The translations under genes were made by a program, and so were the position numbers. 20,119 nt of DNA from IMG/VR virus record IMGVR_UViG_3300030943_000202, positions 1 through 20,119 of that record; one strand, 5' to 3'. Of the stretch, positions 5,791-19,118 are shown in pieces; the first letter of the stretch is position 1; every line of letters begins with the position of its first letter. The DNA comes from a virus. Under the pieces are notes generated by a model that ran no database searches, was not told the origin of the DNA, and worked only from the letters and a program-made list of their open reading frames with translations.

Positions 5791-6365
5791 AACGGATTCC
5801 CTCCAAAAGTTTTTTGCGCAATGGCGAATAGCGATTCGATGCCGCCAAGAAGAGCCGCGACATTTCTAAACTGTTCTTCAACCGCATACAATGGATCTGT
5901 TTCATCAAGAGCGAGCTCAATATCGACGACAGAATGCTGTGGAATGCCGATAGCATTTACCATATTAGCGGTATGCTGAAAATCGCACTTTGTCACATAA
6001 TAGACTTGCGGAATACTTCCCGTACCCCACGAATAAAGGACTTTCGGATTCGCAGAGAATTGTCCGCGTTGTGCAGCTTTCCCGAGAAAGCCTTGCGCCT
6101 GATTTCGAAGAAGTTCAAACTGTTTCAATAGCATCATGTCGCCATCAACTGCGTTACGTCTACATATCGGAAGTGAGAAGCTGATTTTTCTATTCCCATT
6201 TCCACCCGTTGATATAGGCTGAAAGTTACGTCCAGGAATAGGCGTTTCGGTAATGACGACGGCCTTACTGTCCTTGATTGTTCCTTCCGGAATCGTCGCG
6301 CTCGTAATGAGTTGCTTGTTATAAAGGTCGTACATGTACCACGGAAGAGATGATGCAAAGTTCAA
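5787..6365 (-). CDS. Baseplate hub adaptor, CIS-tube/LysM-type tail protein
   Basis: The 192-residue gene starts with TTG (6365-6363) immediately after the tape-measure TAG, with GGAGGG at 6373-6378 (7-base spacing). Key segments are ETPIPGRNFQPISTGGNGNR, KISFSLPICRRNAVDGD, a helix MMLLKQFELLRNQ, then ANPKVLYSWGTGSIPQVYYV and VDIELALDETDPLY. The P-x-V-L-Y-S-W-G strand, followed by a second strand and the L-x-E ending, matches the tube-initiator or LysM-associated protein of contractile injection systems, which sits between hub and tube. The C-terminal helix (160-188) has no recognisable LysM repeat. The family match is from pattern memory; the hub-adjacent role is supported by gene order. Confidence 0.6.
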   Translation of the reverse strand: MNFASSLPWYMYDLYNKQLITSATIPEGTIKDSKAVVITETPIPGRNFQPISTGGNGNRKISFSLPICRRNAVDGDMMLLKQFELLRNQAQGFLGKAAQRGQFSANPKVLYSWGTGSIPQVYYVTKCDFQHTANMVNAIGIPQHSVVDIELALDETDPLYAVEEQFRNVAALLGGIESLFAIAQKTFGGNPF

Positions 6366-7808
6366 CTATCTACCCTCCGCAAGTCTGGCATTTGATACGT
6401 TGTTTCTGAAAGAATACGCGAGTCCAGAACCGAAGTTACGACCAGCTTGTTCAGCATCGCCTTCAGTTACGGAAATATAGAATGGGCCGATGTTTACCGG
6501 CATGGTTTCGGTTTTCTTTTTCGTGTAGCTTGCAAAATCTTTAGCGGCGAATATGTTATCATCTGGCGATGTTTCATGTACTTGACCGCCTTTCGTAATG
6601 ATAACGTCATTATGTTTCGTTCCTGACAGATTCTTTTCCCAGTTATCGCCTACATTTCCGATTGCACCGAGATATGGTGCCGCGTAATCTTTAGCCGAAC
6701 CGGTCAATGTGCTAAACTGTTTATCTGCACGCCCTTGCCAGCTTGTAAATAACCCTTGTATTTTCCCAAACTCTTCAAGTGAACCCTTGAAGTCACCGGC
6801 AAGAAACTTTGCAACGCCTTTAGCCATCTGCAAAAGCATACCAAAACCAGAAACAAGCTCGTCAACTAACCCGACTACAAGAGTTAGTGCCATAGTTAAG
6901 GTAGAACCAAGAACCGTACCAATGAAACTGAATGCACCCCGTATTCCTTCGGAGTCATCAAAACCTAAAACCTTCAATAATTGATTGAACGATTCAACAA
7001 GCGTATCGATCGGTGTCATAAGATTGCGAACTGCTGGCAAAAATCCTTCCGTAAATCCTTTTACTGCGTTCTCGATAAAGTTTGCAAGTAAATGAAAAGT
7101 CTCTTTCAGTTTATCAATAATAGTCCAAAGACTCGCGCCTTGTTCATTTGCAGTCGTCCATGCTTTCACAAGGTCGAGAAAAAACTTGACAATCGTTGCA
7201 CCCATGTCGATAATCCACTCGAACGCGGGCTTGAAGTCTGTCACTAATTGTTTCGCGAGCATACCCATAAATATGATGACGGCAGATATCTTAAACGATA
7301 ACACGTTTAAAAACTCATCGAATGATTTGAAGTTCGTATTGAACGCCTTCTGAAATGCTTCACCTACGGTCTTCACGAGTGACTTGAAAACTTCCCAAAG
7401 TGTTTTTGCGACGACGACAACAGTGCGGAAAATGTTCGCGACGGTCGCGCCCCATTTCACGAACTGCGCGCGATTATCACGAACCCAGTCAAGCATTTTC
7501 TGCAAGAGCGGCATAACCTGTTGACGTAATGGCCATAAGAGATTTTTGAGGAATATATCTTTTGCAAGACCGAACGCTTGACCGACTTCGGGCATTTCTT
7601 TGAGAACTGCTCCAGCCGTTTTGAACGCAGCGATTAAACCGCCTACTTTCAAAATGAGACCGTTTACTGATTTATTGACTGCGCCCGTAATCGTTGAACC
7701 GAACTTTTTCGCGTTGCCTTCGATCCGGCCCATACCTTCGCCGATTTTGTTTACGCCCGCGAGAAAAGGGGAGACGTCAAAGTTGAATACATTTTCATTC
7801 GCTGCCAT
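6366..7808 (-). CDS. Tape measure protein
   Basis: This 480-residue protein is long, helical and hydrophobic in the middle (for example TVVVVAKTLWEVFKSLV and SAVIIFMGMLAKQLV). That is typical of the tape measure that sets tail length and is ejected with the DNA. Residues 400-425 carry a C-terminal motif common in tape measures (DVIITKGGQVHETSPDDNIF, then AAKDF). The N-terminus starts NVFNFDVSPFLAGVNKIGE and resembles tape-measure openings. The length is short for the class, which by the usual 1.5 angstrom per residue rule implies a tail of roughly 70 nm. ATG has a GGAGGG site (spacing about 7) and overlaps the end of the frameshifted chaperone by 14 bases. It is followed by baseplate genes, as expected. 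Confidence 0.85.
   Translation of the reverse strand: MAANENVFNFDVSPFLAGVNKIGEGMGRIEGNAKKFGSTITGAVNKSVNGLILKVGGLIAAFKTAGAVLKEMPEVGQAFGLAKDIFLKNLLWPLRQQVMPLLQKMLDWVRDNRAQFVKWGATVANIFRTVVVVAKTLWEVFKSLVKTVGEAFQKAFNTNFKSFDEFLNVLSFKISAVIIFMGMLAKQLVTDFKPAFEWIIDMGATIVKFFLDLVKAWTTANEQGASLWTIIDKLKETFHLLANFIENAVKGFTEGFLPAVRNLMTPIDTLVESFNQLLKVLGFDDSEGIRGAFSFIGTVLGSTLTMALTLVVGLVDELVSGFGMLLQMAKGVAKFLAGDFKGSLEEFGKIQGLFTSWQGRADKQFSTLTGSAKDYAAPYLGAIGNVGDNWEKNLSGTKHNDVIITKGGQVHETSPDDNIFAAKDFASYTKKKTETMPVNIGPFYISVTEGDAEQAGRNFGSGLAYSFRNNVSNARLAEGR
6373..6378 (-). promoter_or_regulatory. Ribosome binding site supporting the TTG start of the hub adaptor gene
   Basis: GGAGGG lies 7 bases before the TTG at 6365-6363, which directly follows the tape-measure TAG. 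The next in-frame ATG is at codon 11 and has no ribosome site. Confidence 0.7.
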
Positions 7809-8813
7809 TGTCTGTTCCCTCCTGTTTTTCTTCGGCTACTTTCCAAGCGAGAGTATATTGATCCCAGGGTAAGCGTTCAAGCCATTCTGGAGATAAACGC
7901 GCCGCTTTCGCAAGGCGCACACATTCTACGGTCAGCATCGAACGATTAAAATCCAGTGCGTTTATTGCCCACGGGAGGGACGGTCGCGGCGAGGGGCCTT
8001 CTTGCTTAGACCGGAGGCGAAAAAACCATTCAAGTCAATCGGCGCGTCAAAGTGCGTTTTGCACTTCATGCAGATTCTTTCACGTGTTACGTTGATCGAA
8101 TAGCGTTTCATTTCCTCGTTAAGCGTTGCCATGTCTTCTGCGTCCATCTTTTCAAAGAATCTCGTTCCGAATGCAGATTTCCATGTAGCATCGCACGGTT
8201 TCCCGTTGATAGTCCTGAGTGCAGAACTATATAGCGCAAACTGCATACGCATTTCAGCATCGGGGCATTTCTGATGAGCGCGGATACACTGGTCGAGTGT
8301 CGGCCAATCCATGACGAACGATTCAACCGTTTCGATCACTTCGCTTGAATCACTCCGTTTCAATTCAACTGGATATTCAAGAGTAATAGCAATGCCCGCG
8401 CGCGGATCATCAAGTGTTTCAATGTCAAGCGCATACAGATGATCGGTATCATCAAACTCTATACCGTCCGTTTCTCCGCGTTCAGCTTTTACGATACTTC
8501 CGCATTTCGGGCACGCATACTCACCGGATATCGAATCGTCTTTTTTCGTTTCTGCCATTCCATAGCACGCAAGGGAGAACGCTGATTCAAACGGCATGAA
8601 GCGAAGAGCGCGCCTAATTTCTGCGCACTCGATTGTGCCACTGTCTCCGGAAAGATTTTCCGTGATACCGACGTTCCATTCGAGAATAGCAGAATAAGGA
8701 TTCCCCCGTTCTGCTTCTTCCGTAGTCTTTGCGATACCGAGCGAGTCAGCCCGTCCCACTTTCACTTCCGTGTATACCGAGCCGTCAAGCTCCACTCCAA
8801 CCGATAATTTCAT
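7795..8813 (-). CDS. Tail assembly chaperone, -1 frameshift product (about 339 aa)
   Basis: At 8025-8019 the ribosome can slip back by one base on U UUU UUC after Phe264-Phe265. The -1 frame is then open for 74 residues, from 8019 to a TGA at 7795-7797, fourteen bases inside the tape-measure gene. The extension begins RLRSKQEGPSPRPSLPW and contains LAKAARLSPEWLERLPWDQY and TLAWKVAEEKQ. That is a compact helical segment of the sort seen in lambda GT-like and other chaperone extensions. It fills the 153 bases between the chaperone stop and the tape-measure start. An in-frame ATG inside it has no ribosome site, so a separate gene is less likely. The longer form would bind the tape measure and recruit tube subunits. 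Confidence 0.72.
7962..8813 (-). CDS. Tail assembly chaperone, unshifted form, with split zinc ribbon
   Basis: The 283-residue protein lies between the tube and tape-measure genes, the place of tail assembly chaperones (lambda G, P2 E). It contains two CxxC pairs far apart: Cys101/Cys104 in YACPKCGSIVKAE and Cys248/Cys251 in RICMKCKTHFDAP. These could together bind zinc, with a mostly helical stretch (160-240) between them. T4 gp26-type baseplate/chaperone families also carry such cysteines, so a relation to them is the main alternative. Residues 262-266 (NGFFA) are encoded over a U UUU UUC slippery site. The normal frame then ends after 18 more residues. ATG follows an AGAGGAA site; hairpin 8830-8843 lies just before. 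Chaperone role: moderately secure. Confidence 0.7.
   Translation of the reverse strand: MKLSVGVELDGSVYTEVKVGRADSLGIAKTTEEAERGNPYSAILEWNVGITENLSGDSGTIECAEIRRALRFMPFESAFSLACYGMAETKKDDSISGEYACPKCGSIVKAERGETDGIEFDDTDHLYALDIETLDDPRAGIAITLEYPVELKRSDSSEVIETVESFVMDWPTLDQCIRAHQKCPDAEMRMQFALYSSALRTINGKPCDATWKSAFGTRFFEKMDAEDMATLNEEMKRYSINVTRERICMKCKTHFDAPIDLNGFFASGLSKKAPRRDRPSRGQ
8019..8025 (-). other. Programmed -1 frameshift slippery heptamer
   Basis: The minus-strand mRNA reads U UUU UUC in the zero frame (codons GGU UUU UUC), a canonical X-XXY-YYZ site. Both tRNAs keep good pairing after slipping. Five bases downstream a CGGTC arm (8009-8013) can pair with GACCG (7981-7985), giving a possible stimulatory stem with a 23-base loop. 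The open -1 frame after it supports real use. Confidence 0.75.
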
Positions 8814-8829
8814 TTCAATCAGTTCCTCT

Positions 8830-8843
8830 ATGTCTCACGACAT
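8830..8843 (-). promoter_or_regulatory. GNRA-loop RNA hairpin in the tail-chaperone leader
   Basis: The minus strand reads ATGTC-GTGA-GACAT, a 5-bp stem with the same GUGA loop as the other leader hairpins. One base pair differs from the sheath copy by a compensatory change (C-G to U-A). It lies just upstream of the AGAGGAA ribosome site of the gene starting at 8813. UC and GA flanks can add two pairs after an A-A mismatch. Confidence 0.68.
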
Positions 8844-8858
8844 TGATTTATTGTTTTT

Positions 8859-9272
8859 TTACTCCACGGGCGTAATGTCATACGGAATGAAAGTGACTTC
8901 CATTCTCGCGTATGAAACGTTTGCGAGGTCAGTCTCAGGTATCTTCTTAACCGAGCATTCAACGGACTCCCACAATTCACGGGCAAACTCAACGCCTCCA
9001 GCATCGCACAATATGATAGTGACGTCGTGCTGTTCGTCATTGTTGTACCAGTCGTTCAGTGTTTTACGCGTTGAAGTCGAACGGCGAGTTTCAAACGTCG
9101 CAGGGATTGCGGGCATTGTGGTAACGCCCGTTGCGATTTTGTAAATACGACGGAAACCGGGAACGTCGATCATGCCTTTTTCAAGCGAGATTTCACCGAG
9201 TTTCACAAGCCCGGGAAGTTCGTCCCCGTCAATGAGCAATCGGACTTTCTGCGCCATGCTATTCTGTTGCAT
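8859..9272 (-). CDS. Tail tube protein
   Basis: The 137-residue protein lies directly after the sheath gene, as in P2, Mu and T4-like gene orders. It shows the short beta-barrel pattern of tube subunits: KVRLLIDGDELPGLVKLGEI near the N-terminus, GMIDVPGFRRIYKIATGV, the helix segment STRKTLNDWYNN, then HDVTIILCDAGGVEFAREL and a terminal strand ANVSYARMEVTFIPYDI. Subunits stack as hexameric rings around the tape measure to form the DNA channel. ATG is preceded by a GAGGAG ribosome site (about 8 bases). The track start may be trimmed to the Met at residue 6 (MAQKV), but the first Met fits the ribosome site better. Confidence 0.85.
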   Translation of the reverse strand: MQQNSMAQKVRLLIDGDELPGLVKLGEISLEKGMIDVPGFRRIYKIATGVTTMPAIPATFETRRSTSTRKTLNDWYNNDEQHDVTIILCDAGGVEFARELWESVECSVKKIPETDLANVSYARMEVTFIPYDITPVE

Positions 9273-9296
9273 CGTTTTTTCTCCTCATCTTTAATA

Positions 9297-9321
9297 AGCG
9301 CCGGACATTATGCCCGACGCT
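9297..9321 (-). promoter_or_regulatory. Stem-loop between sheath and tube genes
   Basis: The minus-strand RNA pairs AGCGUCGGGCA with UGUCCGGCGCU around a 3-base loop, an 11-bp stem containing two G-U wobbles. It begins ten bases after the sheath stop codon and ends about 25 bases before the tube start. There is no run of U after it (UAUUAAAG follows), so it does not look like a complete terminator. Likely roles are protection of the sheath mRNA 3' end, weak attenuation or an RNA processing site. Confidence 0.6.
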
Positions 9322-9330
9322 CGATACTTT

Positions 9331-11154
9331 TTACTGGACCTTGTAAACTACTCCGACGCCGATTTTGATCGAGCCCGCGGGCGCGGGAAACGAGAAATAC
9401 ACGTCAATGTCACGATTACCTGCTTGTAGGAATCCAACAGGGTTATTCGAAGCATCGGCGATAACTTCATATCCGTCCGATTCATCCGACATTGTACCTT
9501 TTCCGTCGTCAAGTTCGTATTGCCCGAAAGTCTCGCCTTCCTTGACGTTTCCAGTGCTTCCACGTTTCCACATTTTGTGCATAAACTGAAGCATCGCCAT
9601 TCTGTCTTCACGAACGCGTCCAATACTGTTCGGCGTATTCTCGGAAGTCTGCAAGGAATCAACGCCGGAAACCTTGATATAGTTCCGCATGAACACGACG
9701 TTTGCATACCGAAACTCGACTCCCGTTGAAGGCGTAAACAAGTTACGAACGCAATAACCAGAGCCTGAAAGAGATTGAATCACGTTGACGCCTGCGCTTG
9801 CAATATCGGTTCGGTCAAGATCATCAGGGGCGGTATAGCCGTATACCTGATATACACCCTTAAGCGGGAACGTAATCTGCGCGGGAATCTGATGAATACC
9901 GAGGGACGCAAAACCGGCAACCATCCATCCCATGAGGTGACCGCAATTCGGGACCGCACGGCGCGGAGCAGTCGGAGAGTCAGCGAACGGGTCAGAAACA
10001 CCCAACCAGTTATGCGCGTACACTGCGTCAACTTCATCGGACCGCTGATAGAGCTGTCCGGATGCAATTACGGCTGATTTCGTCGAGAGCGCGAACGCTC
10101 CGCAAATTACAGCGATGGGATTATCTTTCGTTGTGCGATTCTGACAATACGTTTCGAGTGCGCTCTGATAATCAGTCACGGCAGTTTCGACGTTCGCAAT
10201 CATACGAACAGGGATATTATTGAACAGTGCATAGACGGTATTCCAGTCGGCAACGGTCGCGGGCTGAGTTCCGTCAGTTCCTCCCGTAAGATATGTCACC
10301 GTCGTAACGTCGGCAGGATAAATCTTATCGGCAGTCGGCAATGTACCGGGGACAAGTTTCGTTGCTTCCATCCAACTGGAAGAGGCGAACACGTTGACAA
10401 TGTACATATTCGGATTGTTCGCGTTGAACGTTACCCATGTTTTACCGATACCCTGATCGACTTCCGAAACGACGCCGGAAGTATCTTTACGATAGACGTT
10501 TATTTTGAGTGCGAGAAGTCCAGCGGTATAATCTGCGGCAAGTCCGGTTCCGGCATAATCAGTATCGGTCCATGTAACGGTTTTCGCGGCTTCATCGACT
10601 GCGGTAATGAAATGATATTCTGCGAATCCCGTTTTGAAGATATGCAGAACGTCACCAACGGAAAAACCGACAACAGATGCAAGCGTCATCGTGCGTGCCG
10701 TCGCGCCGGTACCAGTCGGAAGAGTCGTCACGGAAGATATAAATGCATCACCGCGAGTAATCTTGTATCCGGTCCTGTTTGCCGATACGCCATACTCATC
10801 TTCGGTCTGATACGCTGCGCTCAATTTGAGAGTGGCAAGAGGTGATGACTGGCTATCATTGATTGAAGCACTTGCGACAACCGCGCCGGTTCCCGGGTAA
10901 GACGCAACGTACAGTGTTCCGTCCTGTCCGCGAAGGTTTGCAAAGAAACCGTTGATTGCGTCCCATCCATACGCGCCCGCATTCGTCTGAGCGCCAAGTA
11001 CCTGCTGAGCTTCCTGAGTATTGCGGAAAGGGAACGCCTTGTTATATTTCCGGTCGCATTTTGCGACAAGTCCCGCGATACCAAAGTCGGCAGCGGTTAC
11101 GGATTTCTCCGATTTAGTCGGGAGGTTATCCCCGTATACACCTAAACGCCTCAT
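9331..11154 (-). CDS. Contractile tail sheath protein
   Basis: The protein has 607 residues, within the size range of long sheath proteins. The N-terminus has sheath-type features (AADFGIAGLVAKCDRKYNKA, then NTQEAQQVLGAQTNAG and GWDAINGFFANLRGQDGTLYV). A long strand-rich insertion (about 95-290) follows. The conserved C-terminal region runs from about 480 to 607 and includes VVFMRNYIKVSGVDSLQT, IGRVREDRMAMLQFMHKMW and the last strands IDVYFSFPAPAGSIKIGVG. Sheath subunits form the helical sleeve that shortens and drives the tube into the host. ATG follows an AAAGGA site (7 bases), with the hairpin 11168-11181 just before it. The tube gene is next, as in other myophages. Confidence is high from order plus C-terminal pattern. 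Confidence 0.88.
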   Translation of the reverse strand: MRRLGVYGDNLPTKSEKSVTAADFGIAGLVAKCDRKYNKAFPFRNTQEAQQVLGAQTNAGAYGWDAINGFFANLRGQDGTLYVASYPGTGAVVASASINDSQSSPLATLKLSAAYQTEDEYGVSANRTGYKITRGDAFISSVTTLPTGTGATARTMTLASVVGFSVGDVLHIFKTGFAEYHFITAVDEAAKTVTWTDTDYAGTGLAADYTAGLLALKINVYRKDTSGVVSEVDQGIGKTWVTFNANNPNMYIVNVFASSSWMEATKLVPGTLPTADKIYPADVTTVTYLTGGTDGTQPATVADWNTVYALFNNIPVRMIANVETAVTDYQSALETYCQNRTTKDNPIAVICGAFALSTKSAVIASGQLYQRSDEVDAVYAHNWLGVSDPFADSPTAPRRAVPNCGHLMGWMVAGFASLGIHQIPAQITFPLKGVYQVYGYTAPDDLDRTDIASAGVNVIQSLSGSGYCVRNLFTPSTGVEFRYANVVFMRNYIKVSGVDSLQTSENTPNSIGRVREDRMAMLQFMHKMWKRGSTGNVKEGETFGQYELDDGKGTMSDESDGYEVIADASNNPVGFLQAGNRDIDVYFSFPAPAGSIKIGVGVVYKVQ

Positions 11155-15801: not shown

Positions 15802-17235
15802 TTACGCGCGCCGGACGTTCTTGAGCATATAGGACGTTTTCTCGAACGAGTCGATAAGCGTACCATAGGTCTTAATCATGAACGGATTGTTGTCATCCGT
15901 TTTCGCGAGCGGTTCCATAGTGACGAGGCCACCGAAACGAGAACCGGCAGAGTTCGTATACGCGAACTTGCCGAGCCCCTGAATCTTGTCCAGGTCCCAG
16001 AGAATGACGGTTTCCGGAGTGATTCCACCGGTTGCCACGACAGGAACGTCACTTCCCATTTTGGTAGTGACAGGAGCGGCAGCGGAAGGAATCGTGGCAA
16101 CAAGACCTGAAGGAGCGGACACGGTCGGATTGATCGCGGTCGGAGTAGTCGAGAACGTCACGGTAGTCGTGCGAGCGTTCGGAGTTCCGACAGCATCGTA
16201 CTGGTTAGCCGGAATGATCGAAACAAGAGTTTCGGTTCCAGTCGTGAGGCTTGCGTAAATCTTGTACAGACGCGCATCAGGTACATCGGCCCACGAGAGG
16301 GTTACGACAGAAGATCCACCAGTCGGGGTGACAGTGCGCTCGGCGTCGGCAATCGATTCTCCGTTGAGTCCAACATAGGAAACCTGGAAGAAATACTGCT
16401 GTGCGGCAACGGTTCCACCGGAATCAGTTTTAGCTGCGGTAACGGTTCCCATCTGGACGTCATTACGCAGCGAGCTGGTAGTGATGATCGGGATATCGCG
16501 GTACGCCTGAAGTCTCCAGCCGCCGTCGATTTCAACCTGAGTCATGCCAGAACCGACAACGCCCTGATTGAGACGTACGTTAGTCAGAAGCCGTGAATAC
16601 TTCGAGAGCATTTCCGGCGTCATGAGGAACGCTTTACGATGGTTAGCACCCTGAAGACGGATGTTTGCATCGATCATGTTATCGAGATCCGAAAGATCGG
16701 TCGGAACAGTACCGCCCTTAGTTCCGGCAAAACGGTTGGTCTGAATAAACGTATCGAGTCCAGGGAACATGTACGGGTCAGCCTGATCGTTTCCGTAGTG
16801 AATCTGGAACACGAGGTTGTAGGCATGCGCCTGAACGTGGTTTTCCATTTCAAGGGAAAGGGCGTCCACGTAGCCTTTCGATGCGTCCATAAGAAAGTTA
16901 GTTACCGCGCCTTTCGCACGGGTAACTTTCAACACACGGCCAGTACGTTCGTACGTACTCTGTCCGGTCGGAGTTACGGCACCTTCACCGATTGCACCCT
17001 GTCCAGACGGAAGAGTGAGCAAGCGATTGAACTCATGATACCGCATAGCAGCGTTGAACGGATCGAGCACGGCAATTTCCGGCACGAGGCGAACGACGGT
17101 AGTGGTAATGAGTTTCTCAAGGTTCTGGGGAACAAGCGCCTGAGCTGAGCCAGCGGCGGCGGTCAGTGCTTTCTGAACAGTGGAGCTGATCGCTCCCTGC
17201 ATATACGAAGCATTGGGGTTATTGATACCAGTCAT
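15802..17235 (-). CDS. Major capsid protein, HK97 fold, with inserted Ig/FN3-like domain
   Basis: The protein has 477 residues. The N-terminal arm (about 1-35) is followed by HK97-type features: residues 40-60 (TTTVVRLVPEIAVLDPF), an E-loop-like region near 70-115, a long spine helix region around 118-148 (DALSLEMENHVQAHAYN), and A-domain strands with MTPEMLSKYSRLL (205-217) and YRDIPIITTSSLRN (245-258). The fold resumes at 405-477 with ETVILWDLDKIQGLGKFAY and MEPLAKTDDNNPFMIKTYGTL. Between about 262 and 372 sits a beta-rich domain of fibronectin III/Ig type (QYFFQVSYVGLNGES, then TLSWADVPDARLYKIYAS). A VQKA motif at 20-23 suggests removal of the first 22 residues on maturation. ATG follows an AAAGGA site that sits against a GNRA-loop hairpin. 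This should be the most abundant virion protein. Confidence 0.85.
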   Translation of the reverse strand: MTGINNPNASYMQGAISSTVQKALTAAAGSAQALVPQNLEKLITTTVVRLVPEIAVLDPFNAAMRYHEFNRLLTLPSGQGAIGEGAVTPTGQSTYERTGRVLKVTRAKGAVTNFLMDASKGYVDALSLEMENHVQAHAYNLVFQIHYGNDQADPYMFPGLDTFIQTNRFAGTKGGTVPTDLSDLDNMIDANIRLQGANHRKAFLMTPEMLSKYSRLLTNVRLNQGVVGSGMTQVEIDGGWRLQAYRDIPIITTSSLRNDVQMGTVTAAKTDSGGTVAAQQYFFQVSYVGLNGESIADAERTVTPTGGSSVVTLSWADVPDARLYKIYASLTTGTETLVSIIPANQYDAVGTPNARTTTVTFSTTPTAINPTVSAPSGLVATIPSAAAPVTTKMGSDVPVVATGGITPETVILWDLDKIQGLGKFAYTNSAGSRFGGLVTMEPLAKTDDNNPFMIKTYGTLIDSFEKTSYMLKNVRRA

Positions 17236-17249
17236 AATACTAGTCCTTT

Positions 17250-17264
17250 ACGTCTTCACGACGT
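17250..17264 (-). promoter_or_regulatory. GNRA-like RNA hairpin in the capsid leader
   Basis: The minus strand reads ACGTC-GTGAA-GACGT, a 5-bp stem with a 5-base loop starting GUGA. It is followed after one A by AAAGGA, the capsid ribosome site. The flanks TCTT and AAGG can pair after an A-A mismatch, enclosing most of the site. The flanking bases match the sheath leader almost exactly. Confidence 0.72.
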
Positions 17265-17290
17265 TAAGATTGAAAAAATACGGGCCATAC

Positions 17291-17302
17291 TGTCTCACGA
17301 CA
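17291..17302 (-). promoter_or_regulatory. Second GNRA-loop hairpin further up the capsid leader
   Basis: The minus strand reads TGTC-GTGA-GACA, a 4-bp stem with the same GUGA loop, 26 bases upstream of the first capsid-leader hairpin. GCC and GGC can pair outside an internal loop. It is not next to a ribosome site. The whole leader (17236-17322) holds these two hairpins and no other clear signal. Confidence 0.6.
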
Positions 17303-17322
17303 TGAGGCACGATTAAATTACT

Positions 17323-18165
17323 TTACTGAAGATTCCACTTTGCGGCAAAAACGGGATCATTCGCAATGGCTTCGGAGAAACCGCGAATTGCTTCGCCGTT
17401 ATCAGCTTCGGTTCTGTGGAATCCCTTTGCTACGGGAAGACCGGAATCACTCTGGCGATACACGCCGGAATCCTTGAGGGATTTCGTTACTGACGCGGCA
17501 ATCACGTCAACCATGTTTCCACCGTTGAAAGGCGCGTTCGAGTTCTGCGATTTCTGAACAGTTGACTGAACAGGGGCAACACCGGACGCGGCCTGAAAAC
17601 CGGAAAGCATTTCTCCGATAATCTGACCCTGCTGGTTCATCTGAGCCTGCATGGACTTCATGACGGTAAGGATCGGCGTAAGGTCGGGACTCGCGGAAAC
17701 AGCCATCGACTTCGCAACAGTCTTTTTCCCCATGAGGCTCATGAGTGCCTTCGCGACTTCATTGACGTTTTTCTCGTCGACTTCCGGAATCGCTTCCGTG
17801 CGTTTTTCTCCATCATCGCGGGCAGTTACTCCCTCGGTAGTTGAAGTTTCGAGAGACTTCGCGATAGTTGCAAACGCTTTCTTCACGTCGTCACTTTCCC
17901 ACGGTGCCATGCCTTTTTCCTTCGGATCAGCTTTCGGTTGCATTACGCCCTGAGGCTGTGCGGGAGTAGTTCCCTGCTCACTGCCTTTCATAACGCCGGG
18001 ATTGTTGTCCGCGTCGTTGTCGGACGGGCCGCCCTGATTGTCAAGGTCGGGCTCCGCATGGGGGTTGCCGCCGGACTGGAGCTGGCTGATAAGGCCGGAG
18101 ATGTTGGCGAGAATGGCACCTTCCTCGGGGGAGAGGTCTTTCTGTACGCTGGTTCCTGCGTTCAT
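17323..18165 (-). CDS. Putative capsid assembly scaffold protein
   Basis: This 280-residue protein lies between the protease and the major capsid gene, the usual scaffold position. Composition agrees: residues 30-85 are disordered and rich in Gly, Pro, Asn, Asp and Gln; residues 90-150 and 165-190 are predicted helical, with Met/Gln-rich repeats such as MKSMQAQMNQQGQ; and the C-terminus is short and basic/aromatic (AAKWNLQ), as in scaffolds that bind the shell. No enzyme motif is seen. A V/I-x-K-(A/S/G/D) motif occurs about ten times (K9, K60, K96, K103, K139, K152, K170, K205, K228, K247) and may mark protease cuts. The ATG overlaps the protease stop (ATGA) and has an AAGGA ribosome site 8 bases upstream. 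Scaffolds diverge strongly, so the call rests on position and composition. Confidence 0.65.
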   Translation of the reverse strand: MNAGTSVQKDLSPEEGAILANISGLISQLQSGGNPHAEPDLDNQGGPSDNDADNNPGVMKGSEQGTTPAQPQGVMQPKADPKEKGMAPWESDDVKKAFATIAKSLETSTTEGVTARDDGEKRTEAIPEVDEKNVNEVAKALMSLMGKKTVAKSMAVSASPDLTPILTVMKSMQAQMNQQGQIIGEMLSGFQAASGVAPVQSTVQKSQNSNAPFNGGNMVDVIAASVTKSLKDSGVYRQSDSGLPVAKGFHRTEADNGEAIRGFSEAIANDPVFAAKWNLQ

Positions 18166-19118
18166 AGTTGGTTTCCTTTTTGGCTCTTCTTAACTTCAAG
18201 AAGTAGCCTTAGATTAGATTCCAGGCCTGCGAGCGCGACACGCGTACGAGACTGGCTTTTTTGTACAGACTGGTCCGGAGTGACAACTTCGGTTTCGTTC
18301 TTGTACATTTGGGGATATTCAAGAATCAAGGAAACTGCAACTTTGGAATACTCTACAAAGAGATCGTTTAGCTCGTTCTCGGGTTCGACTGAATCCGATA
18401 CTATGCGCTTAATCTCAGAGTCAAGAGCGTCTTGAAGCTGGTAATACTTTTGCCAGTATTCTTCACGCGCTCCCGCCGCTTGCATTTTCGATTCTAAAGA
18501 ACTTTGCAAACTCTTGCGCACTGACCACGGCGGTACAATACCAAGAGCCTTGTAAACGGGATGAGCGACGGACGCGGCATACGCGGGACGATTCACCAAA
18601 ACAACGCCGTCAAGTTTCACGTCATCTATTTCGCGACGGCCAGATTCATCGACGGACTTTATCCCGCATTCCGGTATGTCGCCTTCAATCGAGAAACCGC
18701 GCTTCTTCGGCGTCTTGTATGGGGGTAAGCCGTTCGCCTGTCTCCATACCTTGTCAGCTTTTTCAAGCGTCGCGGCTCCCATGTTGTCGCTTTCGTCGTA
18801 CAGGCGAAACGATACCCACCATTGACCCTCAGGCGTGATAGAAGCATCGACAAGAAGTCCGACGTCATCGACAAAGTTAACGCCGTGACGCCCTTCATAC
18901 AAAAGGATGTCACCGGCTTTCGCTTGCGCGATAAACGATTCGATACAGTGTTGCGTCATGCGTTCGCCGTGACCATCGACATAGATACCGCTTGCGATAC
19001 CTTCGAGATAACGGTGCTTAATGCCTCCGTTATCCGCTTTCTCTACGGCGAAATATCCAGAGTCGAACTTCTTTTGTATAAAATCGAATTGAATCCGCTT
19101 CTGTTCCATTTCGTTCAC
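18162..19118 (-). CDS. Prohead (capsid maturation) protease, HK97/XkdF-like serine protease
   Basis: The protein has up to 318 residues. The N-terminal half matches the herpesvirus/HK97-type prohead protease fold: the opening strand YLEGIASGIYVDGHGERM, a candidate catalytic His78 in EGRHGVNF, a strand with DVGLLVDASITPEG, the nucleophile-type segment KKRGFSIEGDI with candidate Ser143, and the closing VLVNRPAYAASVAHP (Asn176-Arg177-Pro178). From about 195 to 318 the chain is charged and helical and holds several V-x-K-(A/S) motifs that may be processing sites. The enzyme would cut scaffold and capsid N-termini inside the prohead. The start is ambiguous: GTG at 19118 (AAAGGG, spacing 7) or ATG at 19109 (AAGG, spacing 8), three codons later. 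Its stop overlaps the next gene in an ATGA junction. The fold assignment is good; the active-site residues are read by analogy. Confidence 0.82.
   Translation of the reverse strand: MNEMEQKRIQFDFIQKKFDSGYFAVEKADNGGIKHRYLEGIASGIYVDGHGERMTQHCIESFIAQAKAGDILLYEGRHGVNFVDDVGLLVDASITPEGQWWVSFRLYDESDNMGAATLEKADKVWRQANGLPPYKTPKKRGFSIEGDIPECGIKSVDESGRREIDDVKLDGVVLVNRPAYAASVAHPVYKALGIVPPWSVRKSLQSSLESKMQAAGAREEYWQKYYQLQDALDSEIKRIVSDSVEPENELNDLFVEYSKVAVSLILEYPQMYKNETEVVTPDQSVQKSQSRTRVALAGLESNLRLLLEVKKSQKGNQL

Follow-up and report, generated by a model that had tools for sequence, protein, structure and literature searches.

A lysine-based V/I-x-K motif in the scaffold, protease and capsid protein of a phage head locus: a likely maturation cleavage code

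When a short lysine motif recurs in neighbouring head genes of a phage, does it mark places where the proteins are cut and, if so, by which enzyme? The question is raised by IMG/VR virus record IMGVR_UViG_3300030943_000202, of which positions 1 to 20,119 were analysed (20,119 nucleotides, hereafter the window). On its minus strand, open reading frames (ORFs) and weak family matches, on which all window gene calls are based, define a fragment of a Mu-F-like head gene, genes for a protease, a scaffold, and a capsid protein, and a contractile-tail set. The scaffold gave no convincing match in family library searches of the window proteins, and its name rests on position and composition. An earlier reading of this DNA without database searches (the sequence-only reading) had noticed V or I, any residue, K, and then A, S, G, or D in the scaffold, the protease tail, and the capsid N-terminus, and had proposed it as the maturation cleavage code. 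Sequence comparison indicates that this lysine tag most likely marks the cut sites of the phage's own protease in head assembly. We put at about 90% the probability that a serine maturation protease cleaves on the C-terminal side of lysine, takes 22 residues off the capsid protein, shreds the scaffold, and trims itself.

Each window protein was compared with 4000 shuffles that keep its composition. In the scaffold, [VI]xK[ASGD] occurs 10 times against 0.82 expected, a count that 0 of the 4000 shuffles reach, and in the protease 5 times against 0.98 (p 0.0018). The claim that the scaffold is denser in the motif than its composition predicts, for which this comparison had been set in advance as the refutation test, thus survives. 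All fifteen lysine sites listed at the time were located as described, namely ten in the scaffold, four in the protease (K190, K202, K287, and K311), and one in the capsid VQKA at residues 20-23; a fifth protease site, K27 (AVEK/AD), had been overlooked. The capsid protein has 1 site against 0.67 (p 0.50); as this lone site is not significant by count, its support comes from position and conservation. None of 20 other window genes is enriched (smallest p 0.19, for the tape-measure gene), and the tail genes are at chance, with 0 against 1.09 in the sheath, as anticipated for non-head proteins.

The same pattern is found among relatives. Searching with the capsid protein retrieved 11 viral contigs, or 34 when an alignment was the query, as well as genome records of a Clostridia and a Treponema metagenome-assembled genome (MAG) and the Leptospira phages LE3 and LE4. 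Thinning at 90% capsid identity left a first set of 30 representatives. Their 24 representative scaffolds carry 178 sites against 18.4 in shuffled sequence, 23 proteases carry 80 against 21.0, and four fused protease-scaffold proteins carry 27 against 6.9, while 147 downstream proteins are at chance (82 against 74.9). A mild excess appears in 64 upstream proteins (75 against 57.8); by gene position it is scattered, with 103 against 55.8 at -2 and 69 against 58.2 at -1. Some genes upstream of the protease bear four to six sites each (L008 2236-3720, L081 2251-2829, and L078 735-1466, the L numbers denoting loci; individual p <= 0.0035) and may encode further head substrates.

An independent set was collected with the protease profile alone, from the best 80 of 91 confirmed loci, of which 43 remained after removal of capsids above 90% identity. 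Here the ORF lying between the protease and capsid genes was taken as the scaffold on grounds of location and length, blind to the motif. The 42 scaffolds carry 243 sites against 36.2, the totals of 1000 shuffles peaking at 53, and the 43 proteases carry 142 against 42.5. Of the 66 non-redundant scaffolds on which the following counts are based, 59 are individually enriched at p < 0.01 and 64 at p < 0.05. Single linkage by BLAST still joins 65 of the 66; 12 scaffolds without mutual BLAST matches were found, and 9 of these reach p < 0.01. One scaffold (L050) belongs to the 42 and is excluded from the 66, the reverse being true of L091, and the scaffolds of L005, L025, L027, L028, and L030 are the longest ORF. 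A single ORF encodes a protease-scaffold fusion in at least four lineages (L034 117-1499, L044 254-1903, L046 4691-5962, and L012 4274-5920), and the fused proteins bear their sites in the second half.

How specific is the motif? Over the 66 scaffolds, [VI]xK[ASGD] is counted 422 times against 54.2. An unsupervised scan of residue pairs at spacings 1 to 6 places V+2K at the top (450 against 101.4), and the pairs that follow, K+1S, K+2L, V+3S, and V+4L, compose a single motif, V-x-K-S-L. Every alteration brings the count to or near chance: E for K (62 against 63.6), a spacing longer by one, [VI]xxK[ASGD] (50 against 54.4), or shorter by one, [VI]K[ASGD] (53 against 55.0), reversal (62 against 54.7), and L, E, Q, or R at P1' (57 against 52.1). 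The proposal of a maturation code is supported, with a scaffold consensus, V/I-x-K followed by S/A and then L as judged from the sequences, that is narrower than the one first claimed. This specificity also bears on the idea that amphipathic helices in the scaffold give rise to the repeats incidentally, in line with which L+3I, I+4L, and L+4L are over-represented too. Helices would permit L at P3 and R at P1, yet LxK[ASGD] shows a small excess that falls short of enrichment (46 against 35.1), [VI]xR[ASGD] is at chance (17 against 17.3), and V/I, K, and S/A are required together, so we regard a helical origin as hardly credible. Conservation follows the sites as well. In an alignment of seven scaffolds, 23-70% identical to that of the window, 7 of the 12 invariant columns are P3, P1, or P1' positions (hypergeometric 4e-5), and mean identity is 0.83 at site lysines and 0.46 at other lysines.

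The single capsid site is conserved too. In the capsid search, the K22 column is K in 39 of 39 loci retaining the capsid N-terminus (40 examined, two of them LE4; L009, which is without this N-terminus, was excluded). Across 71 non-redundant capsids the N-arm, with a median of 21 residues before the site, ends in I (46), V (13), or L (12) at P3, K (70) or R (1) at P1, and A (70) or G (1) at P1'. The regular expression used restricts P1 to K or R and P1' to A or G; independently of it, the alignment column holds 71 K, 1 R, and 1 gap among 73 rows, which include L050 and L058, the two loci dropped before the 71-capsid count, L050 for a broken capsid ORF on the contig of L025 and L058 for a capsid ORF without its N-terminus. 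Relatives thus keep the position of the capsid VQK, as foreseen, with [VIL]xK/[AG] in 70 of 71 and R at P1 in the remaining one. The rest of the mature capsid protein is depleted of the motif (22 against 42.4, the lowest shuffle giving 28). It might be argued that K22 is kept for the fold of the N-arm in the shell, and that the scaffold and protease alone are cut, as the neighbours L24, L34, and P36 are conserved too. The V/I/L-x-K context before A matches that of the scaffold, however, the arm ahead of it is variable, and recorded capsid starts in A511 and 812 align with it (see below), which leaves this view only a slim chance.

In the protease, candidate catalytic residues can be proposed (Table 1), and invariant acidic residues include D85, D108, and E145, no third catalytic residue being assigned. 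The sites flank the core and avoid it: family-wide, residues up to 30 hold 51 sites against 5.6, the core 23 against 32.1, and the tail 145 against 24.5. The earlier reading, which had placed its four protease sites after the catalytic domain, is refined by K27: the core has a site on each side, K27 on the N-terminal side and K190 at its end. Because K27 lies in a predicted strand, it may be structural rather than cut. Might the tags be docking or targeting signals that are never cut, V-x-K-S-L gathering scaffold, protease tail, and capsid N-arm in the prohead? All three carriers do meet there, and the hydrophobic L at P2' need not be read by a protease. Such a signal explains neither the sites that flank the protease core, nor the depletion of the mature capsid, nor the A511 and 812 mature starts right after this lysine, and we consider it very improbable.

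The kinship of the protease was approached through profiles and structure models. By hhalign, the family profile matches SPO1 gp3.2 (94.3%, E 9.5e-8, 152 columns) and A511 gp84 (96.1%, E 3.1e-9), matches that make the window protease remotely related to the Herelleviridae prohead protease. The window protease has no Pfam match at E up to 1, its profile gave chance matches only against PDB sequences, and Peptidase_S78 (PF04586) matches 2 of 27 family members (best E 0.0054). Structure predictions were built on alignments of 9 and 10 sequences. The top Foldseek match of the protease model, whose mean predicted local distance difference test score (pLDDT) is 54.7, is T4 gp21 (probability 0.99, E 6e-3), to which a VIA alignment of this weak model gives Z 8.8 and a root mean square deviation of 3.5 over 132 residues; the modelled fold kinship with gp21 is suggestive only.

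Ten loci from Herelleviridae and Thermus phages, chosen from 60 listed of 634 records and including SPO1, allow a closer comparison. Their proteases have S in the S143 column in 10 of 10 and K, followed by S or A, in the K190 column in 10 of 10. In SPO1, [VIL]xK[ASGD] occurs 11 times against 1.5 in the scaffold and 9 times against 1.7 in the protease, and scaffold enrichment reaches the 0.01 level in 7 of the 10 phages. Herelleviridae such as SPO1, A511, and 812 thus share with the window phage the gene order protease, scaffold, capsid, a detectable protease homology, and both the serine motif GFSxEG and the lysine of K190, which all ten proteases retain. A mature capsid start after K is recorded for A511 and 812: the GenBank mat_peptide of A511 has the mature capsid begin at residue 24, after DALK23, and the capsid chain of 9row, 9rox, and 9roz is phage 812 residues 25-463, beginning directly after DVVK24; in the window phage the site is conserved and cutting is predicted. 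By contrast, 5lii was deposited with all 463 residues and SPO1 9vel with all 468. Herelleviridae differ in having larger genomes, a looser P3 (A in the A511 capsid, often T in the A511 and 3-521 scaffolds), and another capsid sequence family, hhalign matching just a short inserted segment (3.4%).

Better-known systems offer a yardstick. T4 has the published code L/I-X-E, according to an excerpt of PMC9026906, and as a positive control [IL]xE was counted 16 times against 5.73 in its scaffold gp22 and 7 times against 2.57 in its protease gp21, with gp18, gp19, and gp20 at chance. Since T4 genes show a like pattern under a known code, the window pattern is how a known cleavage code looks. In excerpted accounts the gp21 system likewise combines a hydrophobic P3, one charged P1, and many scaffold and protease sites with one that ends the capsid propeptide, which in T4 gp23 has 65 residues (PMC5694885, in part) against a predicted 22 here. 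The difference lies in P1, glutamate in T4 and lysine here; the 66 scaffolds show no T4-type code ([IL]xE 264 against 236.3; [VI]xE[ASGD] as above). The proteases of phiKZ and SPN3US (A/S-x-E) resemble what is predicted for that of the window in C-terminal self-trimming and multi-site propeptides (same excerpt) and differ in their P1 glutamate. HK97, which the sequence-only reading had listed among systems with other motifs, does not differ at P1: it also cuts after lysine, at K103/S104 in the part of PMC10275583 consulted, and before S-L as here (TFNK103/SLG). In HK97, however, the scaffold belongs to the capsid protein, the delta domain is without the V/I-x-K repeat (1 match), and no sequence link to gp4 was found from the window protease family.

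LE3 and LE4 belong to the same family of loci. Their gp23 is 45.8% and 45.6% identical to the window capsid over 97%, and by sequence gp23 is thus their capsid protein, left unidentified in the LE3/LE4 paper of 2018; gp22 is a protease-scaffold fusion, as its length in Table 1 of that paper (548 aa, amino acids) indicates. The occurrence of the sites alongside the phage protease gene in Clostridia MAG, Treponema MAG, and Leptospira phage loci speaks to whether a host trypsin-like protease, not a phage enzyme, cuts the lysines. Lysine at P1 alone would suit such an enzyme, as would the one capsid with R at P1, but the sites require V/I at P3 and S/A at P1', and R is unenriched in the scaffolds; a host enzyme is thus scarcely believable. 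A phrog_1028 search of the two MAG genomes gave no match, its controls being equally silent.

Several observations weigh against the proposed code. Seven of the 66 scaffolds have p >= 0.01, and two of them, L111 (p 0.31) and L117 (p 0.058), miss 0.05; among the ten Herelleviridae and Thermus phages, the scaffolds of EFGrNG (a short annotated ORF) and 3-521 are nowhere near significance, and that of A511 is weakly enriched (4 against 1.7, p 0.09). The 9row start is the depositor's choice, and the A511 mat_peptide is the submitter's annotation. One capsid, L103 (7824-9272), alone has R at P1 (IIER/AMT); its scaffold retains K sites. Capsid P3, V or I, shows no covariation with scaffold P3, the fraction of I at scaffold sites being 0.17 with capsid V (11 loci) and 0.21 with capsid I (14 loci). 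The protease model is weak (its pLDDT is given above), and hhalign comparison of the family with individual sequences of T4 gp21 and HK97 gp4 gave no match (0.1%). Finally, an excerpt of PMC6078989 places gp22 among the abundant virion proteins of LE3/LE4, so scaffold removal may be partial; the gp numbering in that sentence is uncertain, because it lists gp19, elsewhere in the paper called the portal. By analogy, virion gp22 could be retained fragments, T4 too keeping scaffold fragments (PMC9026906, in part), or could reflect incomplete removal.

The comparisons show a lysine code that is specific to certain genes and conserved, and that is also present in a homologous system for which mature starts after K are on record. 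From these we infer cutting in the window phage, the order and timing of the cuts, a third catalytic residue, and the fate of the pieces. The protease gene would encode a serine prohead maturation protease (S143, H78) that recognizes V/I-x-K and cuts after the lysine, preferring S or A and then L. It would be incorporated into the prohead together with the scaffold, in a T4-like maturation, and would cut itself after K190, trimming its own tail, and probably also at K202 and K27. About ten cuts would break the scaffold into pieces no longer than 51 residues (cuts at all window sites would give 7 to 51), and the capsid protein would be cut after K22, exposing Ala23 as the mature N-terminus. Before the head fills with DNA, the fragments would exit it or stay behind as small peptides. 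Table 1 gives the features concerned.

Table 1. Features of the head locus (window positions, minus strand) and their counterparts in LE3 and LE4.
Feature	Position	Strand	Evidence
Major capsid protein, 477 aa	15802..17235	-	ORF; PF17236 2.5e-5; phrog_212 2.8e-11
Capsid N-arm, residues 1-22, predicted removed	17170..17235	-	sequence varies among relatives, conserved K at its end
Capsid cleavage site VQK22/A23, predicted mature start Ala23	17167..17178	-	70/71 non-redundant relatives K, one R
Putative scaffold, 280 aa, ten [VI]xK[ASGD] sites	17323..18165	-	10 against 0.82 shuffled
Scaffold site K247 (VAK/G)	17425..17427	-	window motif count
Scaffold site K228 (VTK/S)	17482..17484	-	window motif count
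Scaffold site K205 (STVQK/S)	17551..17553	-	V203 and K205 invariant, 7 scaffolds
Scaffold site K170 (VMK/S)	17656..17658	-	window motif count
Scaffold site K152 (VAK/S)	17710..17712	-	V150, K152, S153 invariant, 7 scaffolds
Scaffold site K139 (VAK/A)	17749..17751	-	window motif count
Scaffold site K103 (IAK/S)	17857..17859	-	window motif count
Scaffold site K96 (VKK/A)	17878..17880	-	window motif count
Scaffold site K60 (VMK/G)	17986..17988	-	window motif count
Scaffold site K9 (SVQK/D)	18139..18141	-	V7 and K9 invariant, 7 scaffolds
Putative prohead protease, 318 aa	18162..19118	-	family hhalign to SPO1 gp3.2 94.3%, A511 gp84 96.1%; VIA Z 8.8 to T4 gp21, low-confidence model
Protease tail site K311 (VKK/S)	18186..18188	-	window motif count
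Protease tail site K287 (SVQK/SQ)	18258..18260	-	window motif count
Protease site K202 (VRK/SL)	18513..18515	-	K in 37/68
Protease site K190 (VYK/AL), core end	18549..18551	-	K 68/68, [VIL]xK[ASGD] 60/68; K in 10/10 Herelleviridae and Thermus
Candidate catalytic Ser143 in GFSIEG	18690..18692	-	68/68 family; S in 10/10 Herelleviridae and Thermus proteases
Candidate catalytic His78	18885..18887	-	68/68 family members; His column aligns poorly with Herelleviridae
Protease site K27 (AVEK/AD), N-terminal side of core	19038..19040	-	K 68/68, [VIL]xK 66/68
LE3 gp23, capsid, and gp22, fused protease-scaffold (predicted)	L012 5962-7356 and 4274-5920		LE4 = L013, same coordinates

Some further observations concern the capsid. 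The structure model of the window capsid is too poor to judge the N-arm (pLDDT 41.6); its confident portion is only an inserted beta domain, at residues about 260-380, with a Foldseek match to the SPO1 capsid 9vel (probability 1.0). The inserted-domain stretch of the L045 capsid matches a tail sheath/connector protein of Achromobacter phage Motura (40.6%, E 3e-3). In L025, which shares its contig with L050, the capsid ORF (5989-8121) is in two pieces, broken near the N-terminus, and in L058 (around 7650-9840) it is without its N-terminal part; assembly error, frameshift, or insertion are candidate causes.

Cleavage after lysine has a known precedent in HK97 and is on record for the A511 capsid. 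What appears to be new is a multi-site V/I-x-K code common to scaffold, protease, and capsid across this large family; the open-licence papers searched, which make for a weak negative, state it nowhere. It is somewhat probable that a single lysine-directed maturation code, V/I/L-x-K followed by S/A and then L, spans a protease superfamily comprising about 70 mostly uncultivated phage lineages, LE3/LE4, and Herelleviridae, as a charge-reversed counterpart of the glutamate code of T4 and phiKZ, and that it was overlooked because standard tryptic proteomics, which cleaves at this residue too, hides these sites among its own. A code read from sequence indicates which head proteins would be cut, and where, in phages that family libraries name poorly, and for cultivable phages it firmly predicts that mature gp23 of LE3/LE4 starts at Ala21, after LRK20. 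Lysine and glutamate at P1 in related proteases would offer a natural pair for studying how prohead proteases choose their substrates.

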